Assembly (NCBI GenBank): GCA_039720395.1
Contig: CM077831.1
Coordinates: 3,514,003 to 3,578,002 of the forward strand
Source: Liquidambar formosana
Taxonomy: Eukaryota; Streptophyta; Magnoliopsida; Saxifragales; Altingiaceae
DNA length: 64,000 nt
Direction: 5' to 3'
In this document: piece after piece, positions 1-49,735 of the stretch
How positions within the stretch are numbered: position 1 is the stretch's first letter
Layout of the letters: every line of letters starts with the position of its first letter
Program-made: the position numbers and the translations under genes
Notes under the pieces: model-generated
The model's input: the letters and a program-made list of their open reading frames with translations, nothing else
Database searches by the model: none
Told to the model about the DNA's origin: nothing

Positions 1-1060
1 ATAATATTTTAAATGGTTTAAAATACAATTGGGGATTAAATTAAAATCTGGAAATTCTTAATTAAATGAAATTGATTTGTTTAATTAAGGAAACCCTAAT
101 ATTGGATATTTGAGTTATTTTAGGAAACTTTATATGTTTAAATTAATTTGATTAATTGGAACTAAAATGTCTTAAATGTTAAGACTTTATTTAATTCTGG
201 ATATTTTTGTTAATACCTAATAAGATTAGGATGCATTAATGAGATTAATGTAAATCATTCAAGAGAATTACCATAATGCCCATATGTTTTAATGCTTACA
301 GTTTTTCTTTACATTATGCAATGAGATTGTATGTATGTGTTTGGATGATGATTATGGACTATACCCTTTAAACCAATTGTGATTGGCCGTCTTATGAATG
401 GGATGTTATTATTTACAAGAGTTGTAATTTTATTAAGGTGATGTAATTTATTTGGGGCTTGCATGCCACCTTCTCTCTCCCTCTCTCTCTATCATTCTCT
501 TATGTACCCCACATTCCCCTTATGTATCCCTTTCTTTAAATTATGTAAATGTTATGTAATCGAGAGCGCACTAAGGAGCATGGTAGACCCAAAGGAGCAT
601 GATAGAGCCCAACAAGCCAATGGTGGAGACCATCAAGCCAAGGGAGCAGATTGAAGGACTTGAAAGCTTAGAGAAGTGTTTCAAGACAACATGCATGTTT
701 CGAATGTGTTATTTTATGATCACCTACACCCACCTTAGACCTTGGATTCAATCTATTGGCTTGGATTGAATCCTCTCAAAGTCCATAATTATCATAGTGG
801 GAGCTTTTAATGAGATTAATAGTGATAGCTCCAAATCCATAGATCGTTATATGTCTCTTCTTAGGGACTAATATCGATAAGTGGATTATTATTATTTTAT
901 GCTGTTCAATTTTTATTTATATGCATGAGATGTATGTTAATTTGATGAGACCCTTAAAAACCCCTCTATTTTAATATTAAGTTGGAAATGGAGAATACAT
1001 TAGGGAATGGATTCTTCATTGCCTTCCATCATTATAGGATCATCTAACGTCCCTTAATGT

Positions 1061-1093
1061 GGGTACCTGGCTGCAGACATGTAGGAGCTACCC
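1061..1093 (+). promoter_or_regulatory. Leader hairpin H0 with ACATGT in the loop
   Basis: The arms GGGTA and TACCC pair, followed by one mismatch and two more pairs. This leaves a 17-base loop (1069-1085) that contains the palindrome ACATGT at 1077-1082. The loop sequence otherwise differs from that of hairpins H2 to H4, so H0 is a weaker member of the cluster. Confidence 0.4.
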
Positions 1094-1151
1094 ATATTAA
1101 AGACATTACTTGAAACTATCACATATGTAGATATCATGGGGTGCCTAAGCT

Positions 1152-1188
1152 GGTATATACCAAGAAACTAACATGTGAGGTATATATT
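1152..1188 (+). promoter_or_regulatory. Leader hairpin H2, conserved 17-base loop
   Basis: The stem of ten pairs (eight Watson-Crick, two G-U) is made of GGTATATACC and GGTATATATT. It closes a 17-base loop at 1162-1178 reading AAGAAACTAACATGTGA. The same loop recurs in H3 and H4 on unrelated stems, and in elements D, E1 and C. The loop contains the self-complementary hexamer ACATGT. Confidence 0.7.
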
Positions 1189-1235
1189 TGGTGAAACATA
1201 CCTGTGTGAATGATGGGCTTAACTTAACTAGGGAA

Positions 1236-1266
1236 GTATTCCAAGAAACTAACATGTGAGGAGTAT
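1236..1266 (+). promoter_or_regulatory. Leader hairpin H3, conserved 17-base loop
   Basis: The stem of seven pairs (five Watson-Crick, two G-U) is made of GTATTCC and GGAGTAT. It closes the loop AAGAAACTAACATGTGA at 1243-1259. The stem sequence is unrelated to those of H2 and H4. This stem is weaker in E1 and C, where one pair is lost. Confidence 0.6.
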
Positions 1267-1329
1267 GTACCCCAGAGGCAAAACGATTGGAATTTGCTTA
1301 TGAAGCAATAGACAAAGAATTGTCTTCTT

Positions 1330-1380
1330 ACTGTGGGTTAGAAGTCAAGAAACTAACATGTGAGGCTTCTAGGTCACAGT
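1330..1380 (+). promoter_or_regulatory. Leader hairpin H4, longest stem, conserved 17-base loop
   Basis: The inner stem has nine pairs (TTAGAAGTC with GGCTTCTAG, including two G-U pairs). One mismatch separates it from an outer stem of seven pairs. Together they close the loop AAGAAACTAACATGTGA at 1347-1363. In element C the G-U pair next to the closing pair is replaced by G-C, which keeps the pairing. It lies about 160 bases before the gag start. Confidence 0.7.
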
Positions 1381-1507
1381 GGGACCCCAATCCCCATTAG
1401 GAATGAGATTCCTGAATTCCATTAGAGGGTGTATGGAATTTGATAAAATAATGGGAGGTACCATATGATTAAAGACCCGATCATTATGGATTAAAAATGA
1501 AATCTGA

Positions 1508-1533
1508 TTTTCTGTTTAATTTTCTGTATGTAG
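1508..1533 (+). promoter_or_regulatory. Candidate splice acceptor just before gag
   Basis: A pyrimidine-rich stretch ends in TATGTAG at 1533, nine bases before the gag ATG at 1543. D has the same sequence (minus strand, ending at 25878), and the acceptor remains recognisable in E1 and C although their gag ATG is lost. Paired with the GTAAGT donor in the LTR (for example 16431-16436), it would remove the roughly 3-kb leader. There is no transcript evidence. Confidence 0.5.
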
Positions 1534-1542
1534 ATCACCGTA

Positions 1543-3436
1543 ATGGCTCACCGCAACCCGTTATCCAACATTTTGGAAACCAACCGTTTAACTGGACCTA
1601 ATTATCTTGATTGGTTAAGGAATTTAAAAATCGTTTTGAATTATGAAAATATTACCTATGCACTTCAAAGTCCACTTCCCAATGCTCCTACTGAGGCTGC
1701 AACTCGGCAAGAGAAAGACGCTTATCAAAAGCGCATGGATGATGATCTTATGACGAGATGCTATATGATGGTGTCTCTAAGTCCTGAGCTTAAGAAGCAA
1801 TACGAGTCCATGGGAAGTGCACCCGAGATATTTGTCCACATACAAGAGTTGTATGGCAAAGAGTTCTTGCTTGAATGTGATGAATGGGTTGAAGTTCCTG
1901 CTTCCAATTCTATGCTCAAGCCTAAAGGCAAGGGAATAAGAAAGGGTAAGAGTACCCAAAGGAAGAGGAAAGGTAAAGGGATCTGTTTTTACTGCGGCAA
2001 AGATGGGCATTGGAAACGTAACTGCCAAGAGTATCTGAATACTCTGAGGAACCAACCTTCGGAAGGTATGGATTATGCTCTTATACTTGAGACTAACATG
2101 AGTGTTAGCTCTGCTTCCACTTGGGTACTAGATTCTGGTGCGAGTTCTCATATTTGTAATTCCATACAGGACCTAGTGGGAAGCAGAAGGCTGAGTAAAG
2201 GAGAAGTAACCCTACGAGTGGGAAATGGAGCAAACGTTGCTGCATTAGCCATGGGGACTTGCTGCTTGACTTTGCCTAGTGGGAGTAGTTTAGAATTATC
2301 AGGCTGTCTTTATATTCCAGAAGTTATAAGAAACATTATTTCTATTTCAGTATTATCTAAACAAGGATTTAGGTTTGTTTTTGAGGAGAATAAATGTTCT
2401 TTATTTAAAAATGAAGAGTTCATTACTTCTGGAGTTTATGTGAATGGCCTTTATTTTCTAAACTTTATTGCAAATGTTAATTGCATAGAGCATTATAGTT
2501 CTAAATTGAATGCAAACAAACCCAAGAGAACAAGAGATGAAGAAAACTCCGCATATGACTGGCACTTGAGACTAGGTCATATCAGTGAGAATAGGATTAA
2601 CAAGATGTGTAAGGATGGACAATTGGGTCCATTGGTTTCTATGCCCTTTCCAACTTGTGAATCTTGTTTACTAGGTAAAATGACCAAGTCACCTTTCACC
2701 GGTCACGGTGAGAGAGCAGTAGACATATTAGGATTAATACATAGTGATGTATGTGGTCCTATGAGCATACATGCTCGTGGAGGTTTCTCTTACTTTATAA
2801 CCTTTACCGATGATCATTCTAGGTACGGGTATGTGTACTTAATGAAGTACAAATCTGAAGCATTTGAAAAGTTTAAAGAATTCAGATATGAAGTAGAGAA
2901 ACAAACTGGTAAAAGTATTAAAGCTCTTCGATCGGATCGAGGAGGAGAATATTTAACTGGTGAGTTTTTAGATCATCTTGTTCAAGCGGGCATTCTATCT
3001 CAATGGACACCTCCTGGAACACCACAGCTTAATGGTGTGTCAGAAAGGAGGAATAGAACCTTATTGGATATGGTTAGGTCCATGATGAGTTACACTGATT
3101 TACCATTGTCCTTCTGGGGACATGCCCTGGAAACTGCCGCGTACTTGTTGAACAGAGTCCCAACCAAATCTGTCCCTAAGACACCGTATGAGATATGGAA
3201 AGGGAGAGCACCAAGCCTTAAACATATTAAGGTATGGGGTTGCACTGCATATGTAAAGACACATGATGCAACCAAGTTAGAATCAAGATCAATTAAATGT
3301 AGGTTTGTGGGATATCCTAAAGAGAGTTTAGGATATTATTTCTATTATCCTGATGAACAAAAGGTGTTTGTTAGTAAGTTTGCAGTATTTCTTGAAAAAG
3401 AGTTTATTCAAGAAGGAGGCAATAACAGGAAAATAG
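1543..3436 (+). CDS. Copia gag-pol polyprotein, first part (Gag, protease, integrase)
   Basis: This is the N-terminal 631 codons of a 1,219-residue Ty1/copia polyprotein. The start is the ATG after the candidate acceptor and matches D. Residues 1-105 are UBN2-type Gag. A CCHC knuckle is at C148, C151, H156 and C161. The protease motif WVLDSGAS has D197. The integrase zinc site is H341, H346, C372 and C375, and the catalytic triad D402, D465 and E501 has the 35-residue spacing. The Gag jumps from the UBN2 start to the basic region before the knuckle, lacking about 100 residues usual for such Gags; D shares this. The frame is cut at 3436 by E1 and resumes at 13129. Confidence 0.93.
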
Positions 3437-5094
3437 TGTTGGGAATCGAACAAGAGGGAAAAATACAAAGGCGGAATATAAAAATTTTTCCTACGATTCC
3501 CAATCCCATGAATCTAACTATGCATAACACAAAATCAAACCCTAACTACAAAGTGGGTTAGAACACTTACAGAATTTTTGTCTTCTCCTTTTTGCTCCAA
3601 GCTTTGATTCCGGACAGCGGTGAATGAGCAGCCCAAGTGTGCTGCCTCCAACGGTATCCACACCTAGCTAGAGCTTCAAGTCCTTTCTTTCTTCTTCCTT
3701 GTTGTTGCTAGAGGTGGAGAAGAGAGAGAGAGAGAAGAGAGCCTCCAAGGGGCTGGACGGCTAGGGTTTATTGTGCAAGCCTCTTATGCCATGTCACACA
3801 TAAGTGTGACTTATATAAGCAGCCCACTAAAGGGGGCTGGCCATGGGGAAGAAACCCTAATAGGGTTATGTGTAATTACACTTAATTGCACATTAACCCC
3901 TATTATTTGTATCAAATACAAATAGGCCTATAAAGAACTATTCTTTATTCATTAAAACCCTTTCTCTCATAGACTTTAAAGCCCTTCTTGCATGATCAGT
4001 GTGTGACCCATTGGGTTCACATCATTAAGTAGTAGGAATAGCACGAGGTGTGCACAATGGAACTCTTTCCATTTAGGGTCTAATTGGAACTCCTTCCAAT
4101 TCCCTAATTGATTATAACTCACTTATATCAATTAGGGCTTCTACTAACCATGAGTAACACCTAGCATATGGCTCATGGTGTGGTCCTTAATGAGGTGAAT
4201 AGTCATTTACAAAGAACCCTTCTGTTATAGTTTATAGGTTACAATTGCATCCTTCCTTCAACACAATGTCTCCAATTGAACTAATAGGACATGGAAGTCT
4301 GTCAAGTCCCTAGTTCAATTACTTTATACTCATTCATAGATATCAACTCATTGATGAACTCATGAAACTCTTTTCATATTCATCCTACCATGGCCATGGA
4401 TTTAATGAGTTATATTATGAATGCTATATGAGACATTCTCTCTCTTTTTCCTGAGAGTGATGGATCCCTTGTTGATCACTCACATGCCTTCATACACATA
4501 GCAGTAGGGCCAATGAACACCTTTGCAAACCCCTGAATAGGATTTGCACTTAGTGTTATCAAACTTCTAAAGCTACATGCATAAGGCAACTATGGTGTCT
4601 CAGGTCTAAGGATTACTTGTACCACTATAACAATGAGAAACTGATTGACAGGCAGGATAAAACTCCATTTAGTTTATCTCATATCTTTGGTCACATTCAG
4701 TGTACCTATTCTTATAATAGGCACCCACTTGTTGGTTGTAGTGTCTCCACACAAATAGCTTGAGACTAGCTATCCTCCTATAGAGTCAACCTAACAAGTG
4801 CTAGTCCTATGGTTCATTACTGTCCATCATAGTGAACCTTCAACTAGGAATGCTTAAGGAGTTTAGTACAGAGATATATCTATAGTCTCAAAATTACAAC
4901 TCTTTGTAATTCCATATTCTCAACTCTAACTCCATGGACATATTATGTAAATATAAATGATGCATATAAACATAATAGAATAAGCCCTTTTATTAAATCA
5001 ATAATAAATGTGACATACATAAATGAAATCAAATGATTGTTCCTAATCCCTAAACAATCATCTCTATGATTGGCTCTAGGGCATAATCCTAACA
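3437..5094 (-). repeat. E1 3' LTR (1,658 bp)
   Basis: In element sense the LTR runs from TGTTAG (5094) to CCCAACA (3437). It is followed on the plus strand by atctcccactt (5095-5105), which is the complement of the polypurine tract. It nearly matches the 11466-13123 LTR. Confidence 0.95.
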
Positions 5095-7990
5095 ATCTCC
5101 CACTTGCACTAAAGCCAATCGACCATGTATCGCATACCTATCTTCTCAAGATGTTGGTCTTAGACATAACCAATTATGTTTTAAAGCTTTAGTCAGTAGG
5201 TCTACAAAAACTTATGTAGATAATATCTTCTGTAATGTATCTATTACCTCTTCCAATGATTCCTCTAATCACTTGGAATTGTCACTCTATGAGTTTGGAC
5301 TTTTGATGAGACCGTGATTCCTATACTTGAGCTATAGACCCATTGTTGTCACAAAACAAGGTGTGGGCAACTCAATGGAAGGAACAACTCTAAGTTCTAA
5401 ATGAACTTATAGATCCAAACAGTCTCATAGACAATGCAACAATTAATTCACCCTTAATGATGGAATCCACTGTATCTTTCATACAGTTCTTCCATTAAGT
5501 ATTTCACCAACTAAAGTGAATATAAAATATACCCCATATGGATTATATCCAAATCCATATACCCATCTACTATGAGTTTACAATTTCCATATACAATCCA
5601 ATATTCCAAATTTGAATTGATTGATAACTATTTGTAACAATTACAACATAATAGATATCAGGTTCAATACATAGTGTAAAATAAGGCTTCTTAACACTTT
5701 AAGAATCTTACTTGTGTTATCCTAGGGCACATGCCCTTGAATAATGAATTCTTATCTGAAGTAAATCAGACCTCCCTTAGAATTCTCCATGTTGAACTCT
5801 TTCAACATTTCAACTATGTTTGATGATTTGGAGATACTTAGCAATCTATATGATCTATCTCTATAGATCTTATTGGATGCTTTTGCCAAATCTTTCATGA
5901 ATTAGTTTTTCTCCAAAAACTAAAACTTTACATTAGATAACATTCATATATCATTCATAATGATTATGATATCATCCATACTTAGGATAAAGAAAAACAA
6001 TCGCACTCCCACTAACCTTTTATACACTCATGGTCCATCTATACAATGAGAGAAATCAAACAATTTGATTACCTCAACTTTATAGATGTTCTAATTATGA
6101 GAACCTTGTAGTCTATTAATAGACTTCTATAACTTACACACTTTTATGGTTTTTCACCATTTGATATAACATCTTTATATCCTTTTTGACATATCTTATA
6201 TTCAAAATGTGTGTTTATAGATAACAAGATCCAAATGGATTTCAGCATAACTATTATCAAACAAGTTTCTTTATAGACAACTTTTTGCCTATGTTGAAAA
6301 CATTCTTAAATAGCCAAGCCTTTTAGGTCTCTACCTATCCATATTGGATTTAATGACTCTTAGTCATTTCTCGAGTTGATGTGAAACATCGTCTAGTCAT
6401 AATCAATAGGATTATCTTGGTGATCTTTATCACCAAAGAACAATTCTTTCATATTCTAATAGAGATACAATATCTCTCTTATGTTAAGAAATATCCAATT
6501 TGATCTATGAAAAGATTGTAGTGTAGTTAAGGGTTTTGTCTTAACAGAGACAAGGGTTGGATCTTTGTTCGTTTGTGGCTTTACAGACAATTCTATAAAT
6601 TCTATCTACTTTTGCATCTTTTTGAATGAACTCTTTCTCAAGAAAATCCAGCAAACATCCTAATGGACAACTTTTGTTCATTAGGGTAATAGAAATACTA
6701 TCCCAACCACTTTTGGGATATACCACAATTCAACACTTACTTGACCGTATTTCCAGATTGTCTACATTATGTTTCCAGACATACGTAGCACAAGCCCAAG
6801 CCTTAACTTCTATAAGCTGGGTTTCTTCCCATATCATATCTGATATAATTGGGACAAAACTGGAGTGAACCCTAAATTATCAATATGTAGCAATTTTAAG
6901 GTATATCCTAGATGGATACATTAGTAAAACTCATGATGGATCAAACCATATCTTAATAGGGTTCAATTTGTTCTCTTAGATTCACCATTGAGCTATGGTA
7001 TTCTAAGATGAGTCTACTATAATTGAATGCATGCTCTACATGACTGTATACATCACAATGTATAGTCAAATTATAAATGTAACTCATTCACTTCACCAAG
7101 TAAAAGATGGGTTTGGTCATCTCATAACCAAGTCATAATCGTTACATTTAAATGAGAGTCTCTACATCTCTTGTATTCTCGGAATACGTTGCATTCGCTC
7201 TAATTAGTCATTTAAATTCGGAAATCAAATTTCTAGAATGTCTTAAATGACTTAGTTAAGAAATAAGTTCCCAAAATTAATCTAGCAACTCTTGCTCTAT
7301 TAAAATTTTTAAAGGTAACTTATTATCTACTTAACTTTCTGCTTCGATTTAGATTATACTAGAATCCAAAAACCAAGAAACAGAACTAACCAACAATTTA
7401 GTTTAGAGCATGAACCAAAACTTCAAAAGTTTGGTTCTTCTAGGAAGACTGATACTTTATCAAGTTCCCTTTACAATACCTTATATTTACTACAAAATAA
7501 TTATATTTCTTTGTCTTTGACTTTTCAAGACTTGCTTTCCTCTATGCTTCCATTTTAAATCACATCTAGCTTCTCAAGCTATTCTATGTGATTAATCATT
7601 TTTCAAAAGAATGATTATTAATAAACAACTTTTATTACATCCTAGTCCAGAAGAAGTCCTTTATAACTACTATACTTTATAGTATTATTTTACTCACTAT
7701 ACAACCTTTGTATGTGATGTAGGACATCAAAGGCACTTGCATTGACTAATTTTGCTTCTGAAGCTCATTAGTCATAAATACTATCATATAGTATGGCAAC
7801 AAGATGACAATTGCGCATAGTGTCTTTTTCTTCTTAGGATGTTTTATGGAGGGCCTTTAATAAAAGGCCTAATAGCATATAAACAATCTTTTGAAATTGA
7901 GAACAATTCTCAATTTCCTAAGTCAATCAAAGAAATCGGGTTTAGTCAAACTATCAATATCCTATATTAGGAAATAGGGGTTTTGAGGTG
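5095..7990 (-). pseudogene. Decayed Copia pol remnant of E1
   Basis: Read on the minus strand, this stretch aligns in order with the D polyprotein. Recognisable patches include the RNase H end next to the purine tract (about 5220-5400) and integrase near 6900-7000. It is full of stops, small indels and A+T-biased changes, about 0.8 kb shorter than the intact gene, and lacks a gag ATG. C (37117-40025) has nearly the same decayed sequence. No product is expected. Confidence 0.85.
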
Positions 7991-8145
7991 AGTAATTAGG
8001 TAATCTACATAAACAAAGAATTAGATTTCATTTTTATCCATAATGATTGGGTCTTTAATCATATGGTACCTCCCACTATTTTATCAAATTCCATACACCC
8101 TCTAATGGAATTCGGGAATCTCATTCCTAATGGGGATTGGGGTCC

Positions 8146-8376
8146 CACTGTGACTTAGAAGCCTCACATGTTAGTTTCTTGACTTCTAACCCACAATAAG
8201 AAGACAACTCTTTGTCTATTGCTTCATAAGCAAGTTCCAATCATTTTGCCTCTAGGGAACATACACCTCACATGTTAGTTTCTTGGAATACTTCCCTAGT
8301 TAAGTTAAACCCATCATTCACACAGGTATGTTTCGCCAAATATATACCTCACATGTTAGTTTCTTGGTATATACCA
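8146..8376 (-). promoter_or_regulatory. E1 copy of the conserved-loop hairpin cluster
   Basis: The complement of the 17-base loop occurs exactly at 8164-8180, 8268-8284 and 8349-8365. The flanking arms pair well for the first and third copies and weakly for the second. Order and spacing match A, D and C. Confidence 0.65.
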
Positions 8377-9933
8377 GTTTAGGCACCCCATGATATCTCA
8401 TATGTGATAGTTTCAAGTAATGTCTTTAACATGGGTAGCTCCTACATGTCTGCAGCCAGGTACCCACATTAAGGGACGTTAGATGATCCTATAATGATGG
8501 AAGGCAATGAAGAATTCATTCCCTAATGACTTCTCCATTTTCAACTTAATATTAAATAAGAGGGGTTTTAAAGGGTCTCATCAAATTAACATGCATCCTA
8601 TGTATCAAAATTTAAACATATAAATTATGCTATTTATAATCATACATCTCATGCTATTATAAATCATACATCGCATGCTATTATATATCAACATATATAA
8701 AGTACCATATTTTGATATTAGTCCCTAAGTGAATAGGTAACATATACCAAACTATGGTATTGGAGCTAATACAATTATCTCATAAATTTAAGCTCCCACT
8801 ATGATGATTATGGACTTTGAGAGGATTCAATCCAAGCCAATAGATTGAATCCAAGGTCTAAGGTGGGTGTAGGTGATCGTAAAATAAACCATTCGTAACA
8901 TGCATGCTTTCTTGAAACACTTCTCTAAGCTTTCAAGTCCTTCAATCTGCTCCCTTGGCTTGATGGTCTCCACCATTGGCTTGTTGGGCTCTATCATGCT
9001 CCTTTGGGTCCACCATGCTCCTTTGGGTCCACCATGTTCCTTAGTGCGCTCTCGATTACATAACATTTACATAATTTCAAGAAAGGGATACATAAGGGGA
9101 ATGTGGGGTACATAAGAGAATGATAGAGAGAGAGGGAGAGGGAAGGTGGCATGCAAGCCCCAAATAAATTACATCACCTTAATAAAATTACAACTCTTGT
9201 AAATAATAACATCCCATTCATAAGACGGCCAATCACAATTGGTTTAAAGGGTATAGTCCATAATCATCATCCAAGCACATACATACAATCTCATTGCATA
9301 ATGTAAAGAAAAACTGTAAGCATTAAAACATATGGGCATTATGGTAATTCTCTTGAATGATTTACATTAATCTCATTAATGCATCCTAATCTTATTAGGT
9401 TTTAACAAAAATATCCAGAATTAAATAAAGTCTTAACATTTAAGACATTACAGTTTCAATTAATCAAATTAATTTAAAACATGTAAAGTTTCCTAAAATA
9501 ACTCTAATATCCAATATTAGGGTTTCCTTAATTAAACAAAACAATTTCATTTAATTAAGAATTTCCAGATTTTAATTTAATCCCTAATTGTGTTTTAAAC
9601 CATTTAAAACATTATAAAATTAATCAATATTAATTAAATAATTAATATAGGAATTAAATAAAATCATTAAAATGATGAATTAGTGTATTAGGGTTTCCTA
9701 AAACCCTAAACCCTAAATGCAAGCCCTAATCATTAAATTCCTTATGATTGGTCATTTAATGTCCAATCATTAAAACCCTAGGTTCATATGGTATTTAATA
9801 AAAGGGATTAGGGTTTAATTAATGCCAAATAGGGTATTAATTACCCTTAATTAATTACACTAATTAGGGTTTCCAAAACCCTAACCCTAGACATCATTAA
9901 TGGTATTAATTATGCCCTAACAATCAATAACCA

Positions 9934-9958
9934 TGATTGGTCATTTAATGACCAATCA
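9934..9958. repeat. Palindrome with 12-bp arms in the leader
   Basis: The arms TGATTGGTCATT and AATGACCAATCA flank a single central T. The same palindrome is in D (about 27752-27778) and C (about 41938-41963). A partial copy with one changed base lies about 190 bp away (near 9746-9770). It carries two inverted CCAAT boxes. Confidence 0.6.
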
Positions 9959-10069
9959 TTAACTCTTAATTAAGGTAATTAATATTCCAATTAGGGTTTT
10001 AATTAATGCCATAATGAAATTAGGGTTTCATCATTAACTCAAAATTAGGGTTTCATCCTTAACTCTATG

Positions 10070-10240
10070 CAGCCGTCACTACCAGGGGGCTGCCTGAGCT
10101 TGGCTAGGCTGCCATGGCCACCAACGACTGTGGGAGGCCATGGCCAGTCATGGGAGAACATCCTAGGGGTGTGGGACAAGCCTCTGGACACGTGAGAAGT
10201 GGTGGAAGTGGCTGCCATCATCAAGAACAATCAGGGTTTC
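10070..10240 (-). other. GC-rich island in the E1 leader
   Basis: This short block is much richer in G+C than the surrounding leader. It contains two copies of the palindrome GGCCATGGCC-type core and a 61-codon minus-strand frame (10230-10045). The frame is open in E1, D and C, but the changes among copies are mostly amino-acid changing, so coding is not supported. It may be a captured fragment. Confidence 0.45.
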
Positions 10241-11452
10241 CAAACCCATTGCTGGAGCCATTGTTGCAGACCTTGAAGGTCACAATAGCTTCTAAATCCT
10301 TATCAATTCGACTCTTCCATTGAAACCAGCTTTTGTATCATGTCCCTACATGAAATACTAAGCTAATAGAAGAGGTTTGGATGATCAAATCATCACCAAT
10401 TGTTCTAAACAATTAAAACAACAGTAGGCTGCCCAGAATTTGACAGCACACTGTCCATGATCAGAAATTGATTTAAAACCCAGCAAGATGAATGAATTAG
10501 GCTACCAAATGAATTTTCCCAGTATCCTACATGTCTTAGGAAACTAATGCAATTGGTTTCATGCAATTTGGAGTTCCCTAACTCAAGTTCTAATCAAAAC
10601 TCCATTGATGACTTTTCTGCAGAGAAAATCTGCTATGCTGTTCATGAAAAATTTTCAAACTTTTTGAATCTTTTTCCATCAAAACCTTTTTGAAACTTAA
10701 ATAAAATCATATACACATGATATATAATGATCCTACAATGATCTTCCATCATAAATACAGCAGCTTTAATTAGAATTAATTGCAAGAACCTTAGGGTTCT
10801 AAAACCCAGATTCAGCCTCCATGGTGTTCTTCTCCTTCTTCCTTCTGTTCTAGCATCTTAATCCAATTATGATGCATCTAAATGCTTGGGAACCTTTCCC
10901 TACCATGTCTAGAACATAACCCAAGTGGTGGCAACCATTGCCATGCCTTTGATCTCCATCAATAACTCAAAGTTGTGGCTATTGCATCATTCCCGAGCAA
11001 AACTGTCTTTCCAGACAGCCTGTAGTAAAAAATTCATAACTTTCACTACAGAACTCGGATTGACGCACCGTTTGTTGGGTTGGAAAGCTTATTCAAAGAG
11101 ATTTCTAACCATATATGGCTCGAAGATTTTGGAGAAGAACTCTGAATTCGGCAGGCAAAACAAGATGATGGTTTTTCATGGCAACCATGAAAACTGTTCA
11201 TAACAGTTTTATAAAACCCTAGTTTCCTTATTCTTCTTCTCCAAACTCAAACCCTATGCAACCTATTGCATCCATGGATACACTTAACCATCAATTAGAA
11301 GAGGAGTAGAAGAGAATTGACCTAGGGTTCCAAACCCTAGGTTCAGCCATGGAGGAAAACCAATTATGCAGAAAAATTTTTTCAGATTTTTGAATCATTC
11401 AACTACACCATAATTACCAGCCCATATGTATTTTGTATTATGCATAATCATG

Positions 11453-11464
11453 GCTTTGATACCA
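11453..11464 (-). promoter_or_regulatory. E1 primer-binding site (initiator Met tRNA)
   Basis: In element sense this reads TGGTATCAAAGC. It differs at one base from the standard TGGTATCAGAGC complementary to the 3' end of initiator Met tRNA, and is one base from the 5' LTR. Copies D and C have the perfect sequence. Confidence 0.85.
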
Positions 11465-11465
11465 C

Positions 11466-13123
11466 TGTTGGGAATCGAACAAGAGGGAAAAATACAAAGG
11501 CGGAATATAAAAATTTTTCCTATGATTCCCAATCCCATGAATCTAACTATGCATAACACAAAATCAAACCCTAACTACAAAGTGGGTTAGAACACTTACA
11601 GAATTTTTGTCTTCTCCTTTTTGCTCCAAGCTTTGATTCCGGACAGCGGTGAATGAGCAGCCCAAGTGTGCTGCCTCCAACGGTATCCACACCTAGCTAG
11701 AGCTTCAAGTCCTTTCTTTCTTCTTCCTTGTTGTTGCTAGAGGTGGAGAAGAGAGAGAGAGAGAAGAGAGCCTCCAAGGGGCTGGACGGCTAGGGTTTAT
11801 TGTGCAAGCCTCTTATGCCATGTCACACATAAGTGTGACTTATATAAGCAGCCCACTAAAGGGGGCTGGCCATGGGGAAGAAACCCTAATAGGGTTATGT
11901 GTAATTACACTTAATTGCACATTAACCCCTATTATTTGTATCAAATACAAATAGGCCTATAAAGAACTATTCTTTATTCATTAAAACCCTTTCTCTCATA
12001 GACTTTAAAGCCCTTCTTGCATGATCAGTGTGTGACCCATTGGGTTCACATCATTAAGTAGTAGGAATAGCACGAGGTGTGCACAATGGAACTCTTTCCA
12101 TTTAGGGTCTAATTGGAACTCCTTCCAATTCCCTAATTGATTATAACTCACTTATATCAATTAGGGCTTCTACTAACCATGAGTAACACCTAGCATATGG
12201 CTCATGGTGTGGTCCTTAATGAGGTGAATAGTCATTTACAAAGAACCCTTCTGTTATAGTTTATAGGTTACAATTGCATCCTTCCTTCAACACAATGTCT
12301 CCAATTGAACTAATAGGACATGGAAGTCTGTCAAGTCCCTAGTTCAATTACTTTATACTCATTCATAGATATCAACTCATTGATGAACTCATGAAACTCT
12401 TTTCATATTCATCCTACCATGGCCATGGATTTAATGAGTTATATTATGAATGCTATATGAGACATTCTCTCTCTTTTTCCTGAGAGTGATGGATCCCTTG
12501 TTGATCACTCACATGCCTTCATACACATAGCAGTAGGGCCAATGAACACCTTTGCAAACCCCTGAATAGGATTTGCACTTAGTGTTATCAAACTTCTAAA
12601 GCTACATGCATAAGGCAACTATGGTGTCTCAGGTCTAAGGATTACTTGTACCACTATAACAATGAGAAACTGATTGACAGGCAGGATAAAACTCCATTTA
12701 GTTTATCTCATATCTTTGGTCACATTCAGTGTACCTATTCTTATAATAGGCACCCACTTGTTGGTTGTAGTGTCTCCACACAAATAGCTTGAGACTAGCT
12801 ATCCTCCTATAGAGTCAACCTAACAAGTGCTAGTCCTATGGTTCATTACTGTCCATCATAGTGAACCTTCAACTAGGAATGCTTAAGGAGTTTAGTACAG
12901 AGATATATCTATAGTCTCAAAATTACAACTCTTTGTAATTCCATATTCTCAACTCTAACTCCATGGACATATTATGTAAATATAAATGATGCATATAAAC
13001 ATAATAGAATAAGCCCTTTTATTAAATCAATAATAAATGTGACATACATAAATGAAATCAAATGATTGTTCCTAATCCCTAAACAATCATCTCTATGATT
13101 GGCTCTAGGGCATAATCCTAACA
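11466..13123 (-). repeat. E1 5' LTR (1,658 bp) with promoter and splice donor
   Basis: This is the transcriptionally upstream LTR of E1. In element sense it has TATATAA (plus-strand 11840-11846) followed directly by the inverted repeat GTCACAC/GTGTGAC (11822-11839). A perfect GTAAGT donor lies near its 3' end (plus-strand 11594-11599). One base (11528 region, T against C in the other LTR) distinguishes the two LTRs by eye. Confidence 0.93.
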
Positions 13124-22194: not shown

Positions 22195-22205
22195 ATCTCC
22201 CACTT
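22195..22205 (-). promoter_or_regulatory. Polypurine tract of element D
   Basis: The plus-strand sequence atctcccactt is the complement of the tract seen in A. It lies directly against the 3' LTR and four bases from the pol stop codon. Confidence 0.85.
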
Positions 22206-22208
22206 GCA

Positions 22209-25200
22209 CTATAGCCAATCCACAATGTATCTAATACCCATTTCCTGTCTGTGGTGATCCAACTGCTCTTGGGTCATAGCTTTAGTGAAGGGATCTGCTA
22301 CATTTTCTATTGTGTGAATCTTCTGTATGCTAATATCACCTCTTCCAATGATCTCTCTAATCACATGGAATCGACGCTCAATGTGTTTGGACTTTTGATG
22401 AGACCGTGGTTCCTTAGCTTGAGCAATAGCCCCGTTGTTGTCACAAAACAATGGCAAGGGCTTCTCAATGGCAGGAACTACTCCCAGTTCAGTAATGAAC
22501 TTCTTTATCCAAACAGCTTCCTTTGCAGCCTCTGATGCAGCAATGTACTCAACCTCTGTAGTGGAGTCCGCTGTAACATCCTGTTTACAGCTCCTCCAAC
22601 TTACAGCTCCACCATTCAAGGTGAAAACATACCCCGATGTTGATTTCCTATCATCATCGTCAGATTGAAAATCTGAATCCATATAACCAACCATTTCTAA
22701 ATTTCTTCCTCCATAGACAAGGAAAAGTTCCTTAGTTCTTCTTAAGTACTTAAGGACAGCCTTGACTGCTTCCCAGTGTTTCACACCTGGGTCTGCCTGA
22801 TATCTGCTTGTAACACTTACACCAAAAGCGATATCTGGTCTTGTACATAACATGGCATACATTAGACTCCCTACTGCAGAAGCATAGGGAATCGTCCTCA
22901 TGTACGCAATCTCTTCTGGAGTTTTAGGTGCCATGTTTTTAGACAACTTGATTCCATGCCTAACAGGAATTAGACCTCTTTTGGAATCTTCTAAATTGAA
23001 CCTTTTCAATATTTTGTCTATGTACAATGATTGGGAGAGACCTAGCATCCTTTTAGATCTATCTCTATAGACCTTTATTCCCAGAATATAGGATGCTTCT
23101 CCTAAATCTTTCATGGAGAAATTCTGTGAAAGCCACTCTTTCACTTTTGATAACGTTTCTACTTTATTCCCGATAAGTAGAATGTCATCAACATATAGGA
23201 CCAGGAAGGTAATCGCACTCCCACTAACTTTCTTGTACACACATGGTTCATCCATATTCTGTAGGAAACCAAACGATTTGATTGCCTCATCGAATCGGAT
23301 GTTCCAGCTTCTAGAAGCTTGTTTGAGTCCATAAATGGACCGCTGTAGCTTGCACACTTTGTGGTCCTCACCACTGGATGTAAAACCCTCAGGTTGCTGC
23401 ATATAAAGGTCTTCCTCAATGTTTCCATTAAGGAAAGCGGTCTTTACATCCATTTGCCATATCTCATAATCGTAGTGCGCAGCTATAGCTAACAAGATCC
23501 TAATGGACTTAAGCATAGCCACTGGCGAGAAGGTTTCCTCATAGTCAATACCATGTCTTTGTCGGTAACCTTTTGCCACTAGCCTAGCCTTGTAGGTCTC
23601 TACCTTTCCATCTGAGCCTATCTTCCTTTTGAAGATCCATTTGCAGCCAATAGGTACTATACCTTCTGGTGGATCAACTAAAGTCCAGACTTTGTTGGAA
23701 TACATCGAGTCCATTTCAGATTTCATAGCTTCCAGCCATTTGTTCGAATCAATATCCGAAATCGCCTGTCCATAAGTAGTAGGGTCATCTGGGTGTTCTC
23801 TATCACCAAGGAACAATTCCTCTGCATTATGGTTGAGAAATCCATATCTCTCAGGTGCAACAGATACCCTACTCGATCTACGAAGAGGTTGTGGTACATT
23901 AGTGGGTTCTGTCTCATCAGCGACAGGGGTGGGATCACTGTCGGTTTGTGTCTCATCAGACAATTCTTTGAGTTCTATTTTCCTGTTATTGCCTCCTTCT
24001 TGAATAAACTCTTTTTCAAGAAAGACTGCAAACTTACTAACAAACACCTTTTGTTCATCAGGATAATAGAAATAATATCCTAAACTCTCTTTAGGATATC
24101 CCACAAACCTACATTTAATTGATCTTGATTCTAACTTGGTTGCATCATGTGTCTTTACATATGCAGTGCAACCCCATACCTTAATATGTTTAAGGCTTGG
24201 TACTCTCCCTTTCCATATCTCATACGGTGTCTTAGGGACAGATTTGGTTAGGACTCTGTTCAACAAGTACGCGGCAGTTTCCAGGGCATGTCCCCAGAAG
24301 GACAATGGTAAATCAGTGTAACTCATCATGGACCTAACCATATCCAATAAGGTTCTATTCCTCCTTTCTGACACACCATTAAGCTGTGGTGTTCCAGGAG
24401 GTGTCCATTGAGATAGAATGCCCGCTTGAACAAGATGATCTAAAAACTCACCAGTTAAATATTCTCCTCCTCGATCCGATCGAAGAGCTTTAATACTTTT
24501 ACCAGTTTGTTTCTCTACTTCATATCTGAATTCTTTAAACTTTTCAAATGCTTCAGATTTGTACTTCATTAAGTACACATACCCGTACCTAGAATAATCA
24601 TCGGTAAAGGTTATAAAGTAAGAGAAACCTCCACGAGCATGTATGCTCATAGGACCACATACATCACTATGTGTCAATCCTAATATGTCTGCAGCTCTCT
24701 CACCGTGACCGGTGAAAGGTGACTTGGTCATTTTACCTAGTAAACAAGATTCACAAGTTGGAAAGGGCATAGAAACCAATGGACCCAATTGTCCATCCTT
24801 ACACATCTTGTTAATCCTATTCTCACTGATATGACCTAGTCTCAAGTGCTAGTCATATGCGGAGTTTTCTTCATCTCTTGTTCTTTTGGGTTTGTCTGCA
24901 TTCAATTTAGAACTATCATGCTCTATGCAATTAAAATTTGCAATAAAGTTTAGAAAATAAAGGCCATTCACATAAACTCCAGAAGTAATGAACTCTTCAT
25001 TTTTAAATAAAGAACATTTATTCTCCTCAAAAACAAACCTAAATCCTTGTTTAGATAATACTGAAATAGAAATAATGTTTCTTATAACTTCTGGAATATA
25101 AAGACAGCCTGATAATTCTAAACTACTCCCACTAGGCAAAGTCAAGCAGCAAGTCCCCACGGCTAATGCAGCAACGTTTGCTCCATTTCCCACTCGCAGG

Positions 25201-25868
25201 GTTACTTCTCCTTTACTCAGCCTTCTGCTTCCCACTAGGTCCTGCATGGAATTACAAATATGAGAACTCGCACCAGAATCTAGTACCCAAGTGGAAGCAG
25301 AGCTAACACTCATGTTAGTCTCAAGTATAAGAGCATAATCCATACCTTCCGAAGGTTGGTTCTTCAGAGTATCTAGATACTCTTGGCAGTTACGTTTCCA
25401 ATGCCCATCTTTGCCGCAGTAAAAACAGATCCCTTTACCTTTCCTCTTTCTTTGGGTACTCTTACCCTTTCTTATTCCCTTGCCTTTAGGCTTGAGTATA
25501 GAATTGGAAGCAGGAACTTCAACCCATTCATCACATTCAAGCAAGAACTCTTTGCCATACAACTCTTGTATGTGGATAAATATCTCGGGTGCACTTCCCA
25601 TGGACTCGTATTGCTTCTTAAGCTCAGGACTTAGAGATACCATCATATAGCATCTCGTCATGAGATCATCATCCATGCGCTTCTGATAAGCGTCTTTCTC
25701 TTGCCGAGTTGCAGCCTCAGTAGGAGCATTGGGAAGTGGACTTTGAAGTGCATAGGTAATATTTTCAGAATTCAAAACGATTTTTAAATTCCTTAACCAA
25801 TCAAGATAATTAGGTCCAGTTAAACGGTTGGTTTCCAAAATGTTGGATAACGGGTTGCGGTGAGCCAT
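22209..25868 (-). pseudogene. D gag-pol polyprotein with one nonsense codon
   Basis: The minus-strand frame from ATG 25868 to the stop at 22209 is 1,220 codons including the final stop, the same length as in A. It has Gag with CCHC knuckle, DSGA protease, integrase with HHCC and D,D35E, reverse transcriptase with YVDD, and RNase H. The only break is a TAG at 24851-24849 (codon 340), where A has TGG for Trp, just before the integrase zinc site. Downstream codons stay in frame. Point differences from A include K for M after the first catalytic Asp of reverse transcriptase and TEVEY for TEAEY in RNase H. The same central Gag shortening as in A is present. Upstream Gag and protease could still be made. 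Confidence 0.92.
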
Positions 25869-28800
25869 TACGGTGATCTACATACAGAAAATTAAACAGA
25901 AAATCAGATTTCATTTTTAATCCATAATGATCGGGTCTTTAATCATATGGTACCTCCCACTATTTTATCAAATTCCATACACCCTCTAATGGAATTCGGG
26001 AATCTCATTCCTAATGGGGATTGGGGTCCCACTGTGACCTAGAAGCCTCACATGTTAGTTTCTTGACTTCTAACCCAAAGTAAGAAGACAACTCTTTGTC
26101 TATTGCTTCATAAGCAAATTCCAGTCGTTTTGCCTCTAGGGTACATACTCCTCACATGTTAGTTTCTTGGAATACTTCCCTAGTTAAGTTAAGCCCATCA
26201 TTCACACAGGTATGTTTCACCAAATATATACCTCACATGTTAGTTTCTTGGTATATACCAGCTTAGGCACCCCATGATATCTACATATGTGATAGTTTCA
26301 AGTAATGTCTTTAATATGGGTAGCTCCTACATGTCTGCAGCCAGGTACCCACATTAAGGGACGTTAGATGATCCTATAATGATGGAAGGCAATGAAGAAT
26401 CCATTCCCTAATGTATTCTCCATTTCCAACTTAATATTAAAATAGAGGGGTTTTTAAGGGTCTCATCAAATTAACATACATCTCATGCATATAAATAAAA
26501 AATTGAACAGCATAAAATAATAATAATCCACTTATCGATATTAGTCCCTAAGAAGAGACATATAACGATCTATGGATTTGGAGCTATCACTATTAATCTC
26601 ATTAAAAGCTCCCACTATGATAATTATGGACTTTGAGAGGATTCAATCCAAGCCAATAGATTGAATCCAAGGTCTAAGGTGGGTGTAGGTGATCGTAAAA
26701 TAACACATTCGAAACATGCATGCTGTCTTGAAACACTTCTCTAAGCTTTCAAGTCCTTCAATCTGCTCCCTTGGCTTGATGGTCTCCACCATTGGCTTGT
26801 TGGGCTCTATCATGCTCCTTTGGGTCTACCATGCTCCTTAGTGCGCTCTCGATTACATAACATTTACATAATTTAAAGAAAGGGATACATAAGGGGAATG
26901 TGGGGTACATAAGAGAATGATAGAGAGAGAGAGGGAGAAGGAAGGTGGCATGCAAGCCCCAAATAAATTACATCACCTTAATAAAATTACAACTCTTGTA
27001 AATAATAACATCCCATTCATAAGACGGCCAATCACAATTGGTTTAAAGGGTATAGTCCATAATCATCATCCAAACACATACATACAATCTCATTGCATAA
27101 TGTAAAGAAAAACTGTAAGCATTAAAACATATGGGCATTATGGTAATTCTCTTGAATGATTTACATTAATCTCATTAATGCATCCTAATCTTATTAGGTA
27201 TTAACAAAAATATCCAGAATTAAATAAAGTCTTAACATTTAAGACATTTTAGTTTCAATTAATCAAATTAATTTAAACATATAAAGTTTCCTAAAATAAC
27301 TCTAATATCCAATATTAGGGTTTCCTTAATTAAACAAATCAATTTCATTTAATTAAGAATTTCCAGATTTTAATTTAATCCCCAATTGTATTTTAAACCA
27401 TTTAAAACATTATAAAATTAATCAATATTAATTAAATAATTAACATGGGAATTAAATAAAATCATTTAAATGATGAATTAGTGTATTAGGGTTTCCTAAA
27501 ACCCTAAACCCTAAACGCATAACCCTAAACCCTAAATGCAAGCCCTAATCATTAAATTCCTTATGATTGGTCATTTAATGTCCAATCATTAAAACCCTAG
27601 GTTCATATGGTATTTAATAAAAGGGATTAGGGTTTAATTAATGCCAAATAGGGTATTAATTACCCTTAATTAATTATACTAATTAGGGTTTCCAAAACCC
27701 TAACCCTAGACATCATTTATGGTATTAATTATGCCCTAACAATTAATAACCATGATTGGTCATTTAATGACCAATCATTAACTCTTAATAAAGGTAATTA
27801 ATATTCCAATTAGGGTTTTAATTAATGCCATAATGAAATTAGGGTTTCATCATTAACTCAAAATTAGGGTTTCATCCTTAACTCTATGCAGCCGTCACAA
27901 CCAGGGGGCTGCCTGAGCTTGGCTAGGCTGCCATGGCCACCAACGACTGAGGAAGGCCATGGCCAGCCATGGGAGAACATCCTAGGAGTGTGGGACAAGC
28001 CTCTGGACACGTGAGGAGTGGTGGAAGTGGCTGCCATCATAAAAAACAATCAGGGTTTCCAAAACCCATTGCTGGAGCCATTGTTGCAGACCTTGAAGGT
28101 CACAATAGCTTCTAAAACCTTATCAATTCGACTCCTCCATTGAAACCAGCTTTTGTATCATGTCCCTACATGAAATACTAAGCTTCTAGAAGAGGTTTGG
28201 ATGATCGAATCATCACCAATTGTTCTAAACAATTAAAACAACAGTATGCTGCCCAGAATTTGACAGCATACTGTCCATGGTCAGAAATTGATTTAAAACC
28301 CAGCAAGATGAATGAATTAGGCTACCAAACGAATTTTCCCAGTATCCTACATGTCTTAGGAAACTAATGCAATTGGTTTCATGCAATTTGGAGTTCCCTA
28401 ACTCAAGTTCTAATCAAAACTCCATTGATGACTTTTCTGCAGAGAAAATCTGCTATGCTGTTCATGAAAAATTTTCAAACTTTTTGAATCTTTTTCCATC
28501 AAAACCTTTTTGAAACTTAAAGAAAATCATATACACATGATATATAATGATCCTACAGTGGATTTGCATCAAAAATACAGAAGCTTTGATTGAATTTAAT
28601 TGCAAGAACCTCTGGGTTCTAAAACCCAGATTCGACCCTCTTCAGAAAACCCAGTTTTCCTTTTTCTTCTTCTTCCAATTCAAACCCTATACAACCTTTG
28701 CATCAATGGTTACCCTTAACCATGATTTAGAAGAGGAGTAGAAGAAGAATAGACCTAGGGTTCCAAACCCTAGGTTCGGCCAGAGAGAAGAACAATTCTG

Positions 28801-28884
28801 TAGTAAAAATTCTCCAGATTTTTGAATCATTCAACTACACCATAAATTCCAGCCCATATGTATTTTGTATTATGCATAATCATG
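25869..28884 (-). other. D untranslated leader (about 3.0 kb)
   Basis: The leader lies between the primer site and the gag ATG. It ends with the acceptor-like sequence (plus-strand CTAC near 25878-25881). It holds the hairpin cluster (about 26035-26262), short frame 26955-26758, CCCTAAA repeats near 27493-27540, the palindrome near 27752-27778 and the GC-rich island near 27885-28060. It lacks the roughly 400-bp segment seen in E1 and C. No coding gene is supported. Confidence 0.85.
26035..26262 (-). promoter_or_regulatory. D copy of the conserved-loop hairpin cluster
   Basis: The complement of the loop AAGAAACTAACATGTGA is exact at 26048-26064, 26152-26168 and 26233-26249, with three different pairing stems as in A. 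In RNA sense it lies 165 to 400 bases before the gag ATG. Confidence 0.7.
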
Positions 28885-28896
28885 GCTCTGATACCA
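28885..28896 (-). promoter_or_regulatory. D primer-binding site (initiator Met tRNA)
   Basis: In element sense this reads TGGTATCAGAGC, the standard site for priming by initiator Met tRNA. It is one base from the 5' LTR. Confidence 0.92.
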
Positions 28897-28897
28897 C

Positions 28898-35459: not shown

Positions 35460-37116
35460 TGTTGGGAATAGAACAAGAGGGAAAAATAGAAGTGCGGAAT
35501 ATAAAAATTTTTCCTACGATTCCCAATCCCATGAATCTAACTATGCATAACACAAAATCAAACCCTAACTACGAAGAGGGTTAGAACACTTACAGGATTT
35601 TTGTCTTCTCCGTTTTGCTCCAAGCTTCTACTCCGGACAGCGGTGAATGAGCAGCCCAAGTGTGCTGCCTCCAACGGTATCCACACCTAGCTAGAGCTTC
35701 AAGCCTTTTCTTTCTTCTTCCTTGTTGTTGCTAGAGGTGGAGAAGAGAGAGAGAGAGAAGAGAGCCTCCAAAGGGCTGGACGGCTAGGGTTTATTGTGCA
35801 AGCCTCTTATGCCATGTCACACATAAGTGTGACTTATATAGGCAGCCCACTAAAGGGGGCTGGCCATGGGGAAGAAACCCTAATAGGGTTATGTGTAATT
35901 ACACTTAATTGCACATTAACCCCCATTATTTGTATCAAATACAAATAGGCCTATAAAGAACTATTCTTTATTCACTAAAACCCTTTCTCTCATAGACTTT
36001 AAAGCCCTTCTTGCATGATCAGTGTGTGACCCATTGGGTTCACATCATTAAGTAGTAGGAATAGCACGAGGTGTGCACAATGGAACTCTTTCCATTTAGG
36101 GTCTAATTGGAACTCCTTCCAATTCCTTAATTGATTATAACTCACTTATATCAATTAGGGCTTCTACTAACCATGAGTAACACCTAGCATATGGCTCATG
36201 GTGTAGTCCTTAATGAGGTGAATAGTCATTTACAATGAACCCTTCTGTTATAGTTTATAGGTTACAATTGCATCCTTCCTTCAACACAATGTCTCCAATT
36301 GAACTAATAGGACATGGAAGTCTGTCAAGTCCCTAGTTCAATTACTTTATACTCATTCATAGATATCAACTCATTAATGAACTCATGAAACTCTTTTCAT
36401 ATTCATCCTACCATGGCCATGGATTTAATGAGTTATATTATGAATGCTATATGAGACATTCTCTCTCTTTTCCTGAGAGTGATGGATCCCTTATTGATCA
36501 CTCACATGCCTTCACACACATAGCAGTAGGGCCAATGAACACCTTTGTAGACCCCTGAATAGGATCTGCACTTAGTGTTATCAAACTTCTAAAGCTACAT
36601 GCATAAGGTAACTATGGTGTCTCAGGTCTAAGGATTATTTGTACCACTATAACAATGAGAAACTGATTGACAGGCAGGATAAAACTCCATTCAGTTTATC
36701 TCATATCTTTGGTCACATTCAGTGTACCTATTCTCGCAATAGGCACCCACTTGTTGGTTGTAGTGTCTCCACACAAATAGCTTGAGACTAGCTATCCTCC
36801 TATAGAGTCAGCCTAACAAGTGCTAGTCCTATGGTTCATTACTGTCCATCATAGTGAACCTTCAACTAGGAATGCTTTAGGAGTTTAGTACAGAGATATA
36901 TCTATAGTCTCAAAATTACAACTCTTTGTAATTCCATATTCTCAACTCTAACTCCATGGACATATTATGTAAATATAAATGATGCATATAAACATAATAG
37001 AATAAGCCCTTTTATTAAATCAATAATAAATGTGACATACATAAATGAAATCAAATGATTGTTCCTAATCCCTAAACAATCATCTCTATGATTGGCTCTA
37101 GGGCATAATCCTAACA
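35460..37116 (-). repeat. C 3' LTR (1,657 bp)
   Basis: In element sense it runs from TGTTAG (37116) to the end at 35460. It is followed by the polypurine-tract complement atctcccactt (37117-37127). It differs from its partner at a few sites, for example at 35470 (A against C) and in the GTAGTCC/GTGGTCC block. Confidence 0.93.
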
Positions 37117-43000: not shown

Positions 43001-43456
43001 AGCAAAACTGTCTTTCCAGACAGCCTGTAGTAAAAAATTCATAACTTTCACTACAGAACTCGGATTGACGCACCGTTTGTTGGGTTGGAAAGCTTATTCA
43101 AAGAGCTTTCTAACCATATATGGCTCGAAAATTTTGGAGAAGAACTCTGAATTCGGCAGGCAAAACAAGATGACGGTTTTTCATGGCAACCATGAAAACT
43201 GTTCATAACAGTTTTATAAAACCCTAGTTTCCTTATTCTTCTTCTCCAAACTCAAACCCTATGCAACCTATTGCATCCATGGATACACTTAACCATCAAT
43301 TAGAAGAGGAGTAGAAGAGAATTGACCTAGGGTTCCAAACCCTAGGTTCAGCCATGGAGGAAAACCAATTATGCAGAAAAATTTTCCAGATTTTTGAATC
43401 ATTCAACTACACCATAATTACCAGACCATATGTATTTTGTATTATGCATAATCATG
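40026..43456 (-). other. C untranslated leader
   Basis: This leader is like that of E1, including the roughly 400-bp extra segment (about 42815-43220), the palindrome near 41938-41963, the GC-rich island near 42070-42245 and the short frame 41156-40965. The latter gives the same 63-residue protein as A. No functional gene is supported. Confidence 0.8.
40170..40400 (-). promoter_or_regulatory. C copy of the conserved-loop hairpin cluster
   Basis: The exact loop complement is at 40188-40204, 40292-40308 and 40373-40389. The arms AGAAGCC and GGCTTCT of the first copy pair perfectly, where A, D and E1 have a G-U pair; this is a pairing-preserving change. Confidence 0.68.
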
Positions 43457-43468
43457 GCTCTGATACCA
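43457..43468 (-). promoter_or_regulatory. C primer-binding site (initiator Met tRNA)
   Basis: In element sense this reads TGGTATCAGAGC, one base from the 5' LTR. It is a perfect standard site. Confidence 0.9.
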
Positions 43469-43469
43469 C

Positions 43470-48859: not shown

Positions 48860-49200
48860 GCATTTCATGCCAGTCTCACTGGGGATAACAAATGTGGTGA
48901 GTTATTTCATAACTCATGACTCATCAAATTATGATTTCATGCCACTTTCAGTGGAAACAACAAAGATATGGAGTTATTTCATAACTCTTGAATCATCATT
49001 TCATGTGAAATTATGCCACTTTCTGTGGGAGCAACAAAGACAAAGAGTTATTGCATAACTCATGGATCATTTCATGTCACTTTCTGTGGAAACAACAAAG
49101 ACAGAAAGTTATTTCATAACTCATGAATCATCATTTCATGTGAAATTATGCCACTTTCTGTGGAAGCCACAATGACAGGGAGTTATTTCATAACTCTTGA
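48860..49200. repeat. Imperfect tandem repeats, unit about 70-95 bp
   Basis: At least four units combine CCACTTTCTGTGGAA-like, AACAACAAAGAC-like and AGTTATTTCATAACTC segments with variable spacing. The element AGTTAT-TTC-ATAACT is itself an inverted repeat. No coding sequence is supported. Confidence 0.7.
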
Positions 49201-49205
49201 ATCGT

Positions 49206-49735
49206 CATTTCATGTGAAATTGTCTTTATCACATGATATGAGACCCAATTGCAAGTCAATTGATTCAAAATCAAGCTCATTTCTTATCATTTCATGTGAA
49301 ACTATCCTTAACACATGGAACGACAATGTACTGGGAGTCATTCAACTCAAAATCAAGTTCATTTTATGTGAAATTGTCTTTATCACATGAAATGATAATG
49401 TATTGAGAGTCATTCAACTCGAAATCAAGTTCATTACTTATCATTTCATGTGAAATTATCTTTATCACATGAAATGAAATTGAATTGAGAGTTAATTGAT
49501 TGAAAATCAAGCTTATTTCATGTCATTTCATGTGAAATTATCTTTATCACATGATACAACATTGATTTTGAAAGTCAATTGATTGAAAAACAAAGTGCAT
49601 TTCATGCCCTCTTCACAAAGATAGCAAGTTACTTCGTAACTAGCATAGCTTATGAATCGTCATTTCATGTGAAGTTATCTTTATCACATGATTAGCAAGT
49701 CATTTCATGTGAAATTATCCTTATCACATGATATG
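49206..49735. repeat. Array of seven similar hairpin units
   Basis: Units start at 49206, 49288, 49360, 49442, 49524, 49661 and 49701. The best, 49442-49476, has 12-base arms CATTTCATGTGA and TCACATGAAATG around an 11-base loop. The others keep most of the pairing. Spacing is mostly near 80 bp. Confidence 0.75.

Follow-up and report, generated by a model that had tools for sequence, protein, structure and literature searches.

Three hairpins in the leader of a plant copia retrotransposon carry one and the same 17-nt loop on different stems, and they are kept in recently inserted copies that no longer code for proteins. This module may act in cis on the element's genomic RNA as a Psi-like signal; we judge the chances of this reading to be close to even. 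To our knowledge, little is known about how plant copia elements choose their own RNA and how protein-less parasites continue to be chosen.

The window, i.e. the whole stretch of 64,000 nucleotides that was analysed, contains nested copies of one copia family, which are named A, B, C, and E1 (B corresponds to element D of the earlier, sequence-only reading). The host element is a plant Ty1/copia LTR retrotransposon: it possesses LTRs and a PBS, a Gag zinc knuckle, an integrase, and an RVT_2 domain, the domains having been identified partly in A and partly in E1, on separate pieces. Element A is located on the plus strand and is split by the insertion of B; its gag-pol region up to this insertion (1543..3436) contains a zinc knuckle, gag_pre-integrs, and rve. 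The two LTRs of E1 (20539-30553, minus strand) align over 1655 bases with 0 mismatches. Its gag/protease frame (24849..25868, minus; zinc knuckle, Pol_BBD) and its pol frame (22209..24845, minus; SH3_retrovirus, RVT_2) are two separate frames in the list of ORFs. The E1 leader, which extends from the PBS to gag (25869..28896, minus), comprises 3028 nt and 107 AUGs. The PBS TGGTATCAGAGC, which we take to be that for tRNA-iMet, was found at 28885..28896 (minus), 1 base from the LTR end. The PBS of C (43457..43468, minus) is identical, and that of B (11453..11464, minus) differs in 1 base. Among the 120 of 154 gag matches listed, the best named relative is a Hibiscus protein, and many of the named relatives are from Hibiscus or Gossypium. 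Blocks of TTAGGGTTT / AAACCCTAA, which presumably resemble telomere repeats, are repeated in the middle of the leader (27484-27884, minus). Tandem repeats at positions 48899-49606 of the window are imperfect and have periods of 61-154 nt.

Elements B and C are non-autonomous. B (3437..13123, minus) resides inside A, is flanked by the target duplication AATAG, and has LTRs that differ at 1 of 1659 positions (99.9% identical). C (35460..45126, minus) is flanked by GGGAG, and its LTRs differ at 7 of 1657 positions (99.6% identical). These 5-bp target duplications and the near-identical LTRs indicate that both insertions are recent. No ORF of more than 80 amino acids is listed in the internal regions of B and C. 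Compared with E1, their coding remnants consist of blocks with 60-71% identity (63% for the first coding block of C), except for the 51-52 nt adjoining the 3' LTR, which are 84-85% identical. LTR and leader of both elements are of the family type; for C and E1, 140 mismatches were counted in 1646 aligned LTR positions and 161 in 2990 aligned leader positions (94.6% alike). B and C thus combine a family LTR and leader with a lack of coding capacity and a recent insertion. Being recent but coding-dead, they would have had to obtain their proteins from elsewhere, and they presumably moved in trans. Despite the decay of their coding regions, both have retained the hairpin module.

The loop sequence AAGAAACTAACATGTGA has 12 matches in the window, three in each of the four leaders. 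All 12 are exact even if up to two mismatches are allowed; shuffled sequences lead one to expect 0.03 matches. The proposal of an identical 17-base loop in three hairpins, present in three exact copies in all four leaders, was thus confirmed. In A, the loops are located at 1162-1178, 1243-1259, and 1347-1363 of the module 929..1518 (plus). In the minus-strand leaders, they span 8164-8365 in B (module 8010..8597; loops 8164-8180, 8268-8284, and 8349-8365), 26048-26249 in E1 (module 25893..26482; loops 26048-26064, 26152-26168, and 26233-26249), and 40188-40389 in C (module 40034..40620; loops 40188-40204, 40292-40308, and 40373-40389). The full repeat unit comprises 20-21 nt, CAAGAAACTAACATGTGAGG. 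In the 718-Mb host genome, AAGAAACTAACATGTGA occurs exactly 7890 times (4056 + 3834), whereas its reversed control does not occur at all (0). Outside the host, neither AAGAAACTAACATGTGA nor gag and RT of the family were found in a viral contig collection, the 20-mer repeat was not found in a collection of genome contigs, and the hairpin module was not found in a plasmid collection. The hairpin region gave 0 matches at gathering score to the 4227 families of Rfam. Among the titles and openings of abstracts listed from an open-licence library (most subscription papers being beyond reach), none describes a plant copia leader with such a threefold loop.

The hairpins in the leader are real. All 12 loop copies of the four leaders fold as hairpins when given 22 nt of flank on each side. 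In A, hairpin 1 extends from 1152 to 1188 and hairpin 2 from 1231 to 1272, the stem of the latter being rearranged in the B/C lineage. Hairpin 3, which the sequence-only reading had placed at 1330-1380, exists but is longer (1326..1384, 20 bp). About 2.5 kb separate the module from the PBS, and gag starts about 160 nt past the last hairpin. None of 100 shuffled sequences folds as well as region 1040-1400 (z = -4.65). For hairpin 3, none of 2000 flank shuffles was as good in energy or in number of pairs. Hairpins 1 and 2 gave modest values: 28 and 24 of 2000 flank shuffles, respectively, did as well in energy, and 281 and 196 did as well in the number of pairs. When 120-nt windows are compared, the best one of the module takes only rank 8 among 81 (z = -2.97), and scores of this order are also reached elsewhere on the antisense strand. 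The leader stretches 28177-28336 and 27657-27816 (minus) also beat their shuffles, with z reaching -5.25 at 28177-28296; their 120-nt folding scores exceed those of the hairpin module, and the antisense strand scores similarly. A survey of repeats with pairing arms of 6 bp in 20 ten-kb pieces and the window returned many chance cases, so that arms of this length alone prove nothing.

The three loops are identical over 20 nt, and the arms agree at just 5-10 of 20 positions on either side. The claim that the stems differ completely and yet pair holds with regard to pairing, but not with regard to complete difference: the 30-nt blocks of hairpins 1 and 2 are 90% alike. The left arm of hairpin 1 pairs even better with the right arm of hairpin 2 (-13.5 kcal/mol) than with its own right arm (-8.8 kcal/mol). 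Because hairpins 1 and 2 are partly alike, the module probably arose by triplication, after which the stems drifted apart, as far as this can be read from the sequences.

It had been suggested that the loops serve as a dimerisation site, in which ACAUGU forms a kissing contact with its counterpart in another RNA molecule and so joins two genomes. Each loop does contain ACATGT, and palindromic loops have precedents in retroviruses, according to the available parts of the sources (PMC5874298, PMC516450). However, a 6-nt palindrome is present in 22% of random and in 27% of real leader 17-mers, and the ACAUGU duplex ranks only 42nd of 64 self-complementary hexamers with -4.6 kcal/mol; the palindrome is thus neither beyond chance nor strong. 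In hairpins 1-3 it is exposed in the loop, except that a 2-bp inner pair of the minimum free energy (MFE) structure partly closes the loop over it, the open loop being 0.9 kcal/mol weaker. Moreover, three equal loops in one RNA could kiss each other. A fourth hairpin (hairpin 0; 1054..1100, plus) had been thought to hold ACATGT in a 17-base loop as well. This is not the case: the MFE structure has an inner stem CUGCA/UGUAG with a 4-nt loop, and ACATGT is inside this stem. A G-U pair of the inner stem is replaced by A-U in 4 of 41 copies, and shared changes at positions 1067, 1073, 1074, 1093, 1095, and 1096 of hairpin 0 keep their pairs. The sequence ACATATGT is indeed present at 1121-1128 of A, whereas B and C alter it by a 1-nt deletion. 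Taken together, kissing through ACATGT has no specific support, and we consider a dimerisation site improbable. The leader site CCUCACRUGU, which is complementary to the loop, was rejected as a conserved partner: among 19 sequences (16 of 20 fetched pieces that could be aligned, i.e. all except L067, L076, L082, and L083, plus E1, B, and C), pairing is broken in three (L066, L069, and L072).

In order to assess selection on pairing and sequence, 41 copies were aligned, namely 36 fetched copies, the four copies of the window, and L039. The 36 fetched copies are all those among the first 100 places listed, which are on one contig and were found via the exact loop; L039 stems from 20 ten-kb pieces taken at round coordinates. 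Thus, the exact loop was the basis on which 40 of the 41 copies were included. Substitutions occurring in at least two copies were regarded as shared and are mostly older than the insertions, and private substitutions mostly arose after insertion. The tested stems are those of the fold of copy A, and the expectation was derived by assigning mutations of the same types to stem positions drawn at random. Of the 13 shared stem substitutions in the 41 copies, 12 leave the pair intact, compared to 7.6 expected (P = 0.0011); the exception is position 1262. For private substitutions, the pair is kept in 5 of 12 cases, compared to 5.0 expected (P = 0.65). Fisher's test of shared versus private substitutions gave 0.0016 in the first count, 0.011 with position 1262 counted as a break, and 0.049 for transitions only, all of these P values being optimistic because related copies are not independent. 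One example of a pair-keeping change is that reported previously for C, where the U-G pair at 1345/1365 has indeed become C-G. Shared changes frequently disrupt the wider pairs that the same MFE structure has outside the hairpins; therefore, only the local hairpins are supported. Since shared changes keep the pairs and private ones do not, stem pairing was probably under selection before insertion, which ceased afterwards. Together with the retention of the module in recent, coding-dead copies, this contrast supports a role as a cis-acting RNA.

The same data argue against the possibility that the hairpins act at the level of DNA, for example by means of a 20-mer that binds a host transcription factor while the hairpin is incidental. 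An exact motif repeated at thousands of places would suit such an element, but binding to DNA would not explain why RNA-type pairs, among them G-U, are kept, and we consider this explanation hardly credible.

The module is common to three lineages, which were assigned by the author from similarity profiles; the adjoining gag either shows about 80% similarity or has decayed. Taking the best match within 1000-1545, each of the 36 fetched copies agrees with A at 93-99% of positions. The block is conserved among the compared copies and diverged both just upstream and in the downstream coding region. For example, A and C differ at 21 of 60 sites in 870-929 and at 16 of 478 sites in 1020-1499. In the third lineage, which accounts for 7 of the 41 copies, similarity to A is 78-87% at 860-959 and, in the two copies compared, 78-81% over the first 314 nt of gag. 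Compared to the majority of the E lineage, this lineage is changed at 0 of 169 loop and stem positions and at 4 of 312 spacer positions. The third-lineage copies L004 and L007 (and L066, L069, and L072) have a near-identical module, a gag start whose DNA is about 80% alike, and a diverged mid-leader. In the B/C lineage, 9 of 312 spacer and 3 of 169 hairpin positions are changed.

The spacers are therefore nearly as conserved as the hairpins, and constraint cannot be fully separated from exchange. The expectation that the loop is more conserved than its flanks was not borne out at a significant level: among the 41 copies, of which 40 were chosen by their loop, shared substitutions affect 1 of 51 loop and 20 of 312 spacer positions (Fisher P = 0.33). 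For all substitutions the numbers are 6 and 69 (P = 0.19), and the loop-based sampling gives this comparison little weight either way. At the level of the family, the loop thus does not significantly surpass its flanks; what speaks for it is that it is identical in the three paralogous hairpins of a single leader. Along the leader, the divergence of E1 and C amounts to about 13%, then 2%, 24% in one bin, and then 4%. Bin by bin, the two leaders (25869-28896 and 40020-43468, both minus) form a mosaic with 0/150 differences in two bins and 36/150 in another. The mosaic suggests recombination between helper-type and non-autonomous lineages. The conserved block may reflect either constraint or exchange via template switching.

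One could thus argue that the hairpins are relics of an old duplication which have no present function, and that the block owes its conservation to recent descent and to template switching among lineages packaged together. This would be in line with the mosaic divergence of the E1 and C leaders, with the conserved spacers, and with a loop that is not significantly above its flanks. It leaves the contrast between shared and private pairing unexplained, as well as the identity of three paralogous loops whose arms differ. We regard a relic as unlikely.

A further alternative is a control of splicing or translation via ACUAAC and AUGUGA, which are part of each loop. ACUAAC is what we take to be a branch-point-like motif, and within 1-1542 ACTAAC occurs in the three loops only. 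AUGUGA is a start codon immediately followed by a stop. Such start-stops make up 12 of the 107 AUGs of the E1 leader, and five of these 12 are located in the hairpin cluster (three being the loops). With 107 AUGs, ordinary scanning to gag is unlikely. On the other hand, the three loops are one repeated sequence, and seven start-stops are found elsewhere in the leader. No strong donor/acceptor pair was found with approximate splice-site matrices, by which an acceptor-like site immediately preceding gag takes the 10th rank in E1. A leader intron was therefore dismissed, as no convincing pair of splice sites was found; start-stop codons as the point of the loops are a weak candidate (12 of 107 leader AUGs) that was kept as a rival. 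Overall, such a control is quite improbable.

A packaging-type signal fits best, because the module is kept in recent protein-less copies, lies between PBS and gag, and displays one loop on different stems. Hairpins 1-3 would act as scaffolds that display, shortly before gag, three copies of the 17-nt loop. The repeated loop would be recognised by a protein acting in trans, most probably the zinc-knuckle Gag of the element itself, which would thereby select the full-length RNA for particles. Coding-dead copies with the module would then remain packageable by a helper. We infer that the acting form is RNA and not DNA, that a helper moved B and C, that Gag is the binder, and that packaging is the step concerned. 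Against the packaging reading, other bins of the E1 and C leaders are even more alike than the module (0/150 in two bins), and the conserved block could also be explained by recombination between the lineages. More speculatively, the module might be a detachable RNA "ticket" of about 500 nt, whose three loops are a packaging licence; lineages with unlike or dead proteins would keep it or re-acquire it via recombination and stay compatible with a shared helper Gag. This extension is rather doubtful. The family offers a natural experiment, in which a recent helper-type element is found beside recent protein-less copies that have a short module in common. As one, two, or all three of the loops can be disrupted, a packaging signal of a plant retrotransposon becomes directly testable.

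We claim membership of the module in none of the known systems; what follows are analogies. More distant analogues are the PAL sequences of Ty1 and the hairpins of fungal GalEa elements. According to the available part of the source, the PAL palindromes near the 5' end of the Ty1 RNA have been assigned to RNA dimerisation (PMC8396678). Ty1 PAL and pseudoknot resemble our case in being copia-type with palindromes, and differ in their location at the RNA 5' end rather than about 2.5 kb past the PBS. The Conserved Hairpin Site of GalEa is described, in the accessible part of the report, as following the 5' LTR of elements that have no PBS, with a conserved stem and a loop that is the least conserved part (PMC5445492). 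It is likewise a conserved copia hairpin; in contrast, our family has a PBS, and the loop is the constant part.

With respect to ecology, the nearest analogue is barley BARE2 with BARE1. In the part of the text available, BARE2 is a Gag-less partner of BARE1 that lost the gag start codon through an 8-bp deletion and is said to retain dimerisation and packaging signals (PMC3735527). Both cases consist of a plant copia element plus a protein-deficient partner (PMC3735527), but BARE2 has lost the gag start codon, whereas the whole reading frame has decayed in B and C. The available BARE1/BARE2 text mentions no triplicate loop, and "hairpin" and "kissing" have 0 occurrences in it (PMC3735527). With respect to design, the nearest analogue is the gammaretroviral pair of GACG hairpins: SL-C and SL-D of the MLV packaging/dimer-linkage region are neighbouring leader hairpins with the same GACG loop, as stated in the available parts of the sources (PMC5874298, PMC516450). 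The module differs in having the 17-nt loop AAGAAACTAACATGTGA instead of a GACG tetraloop, in having three copies instead of two, in belonging to a plant copia element, and in being known here from sequence alone. Common to both are adjacent leader hairpins that present identical loops on different stems, those of hairpins 1 and 2 being partly alike in our case.
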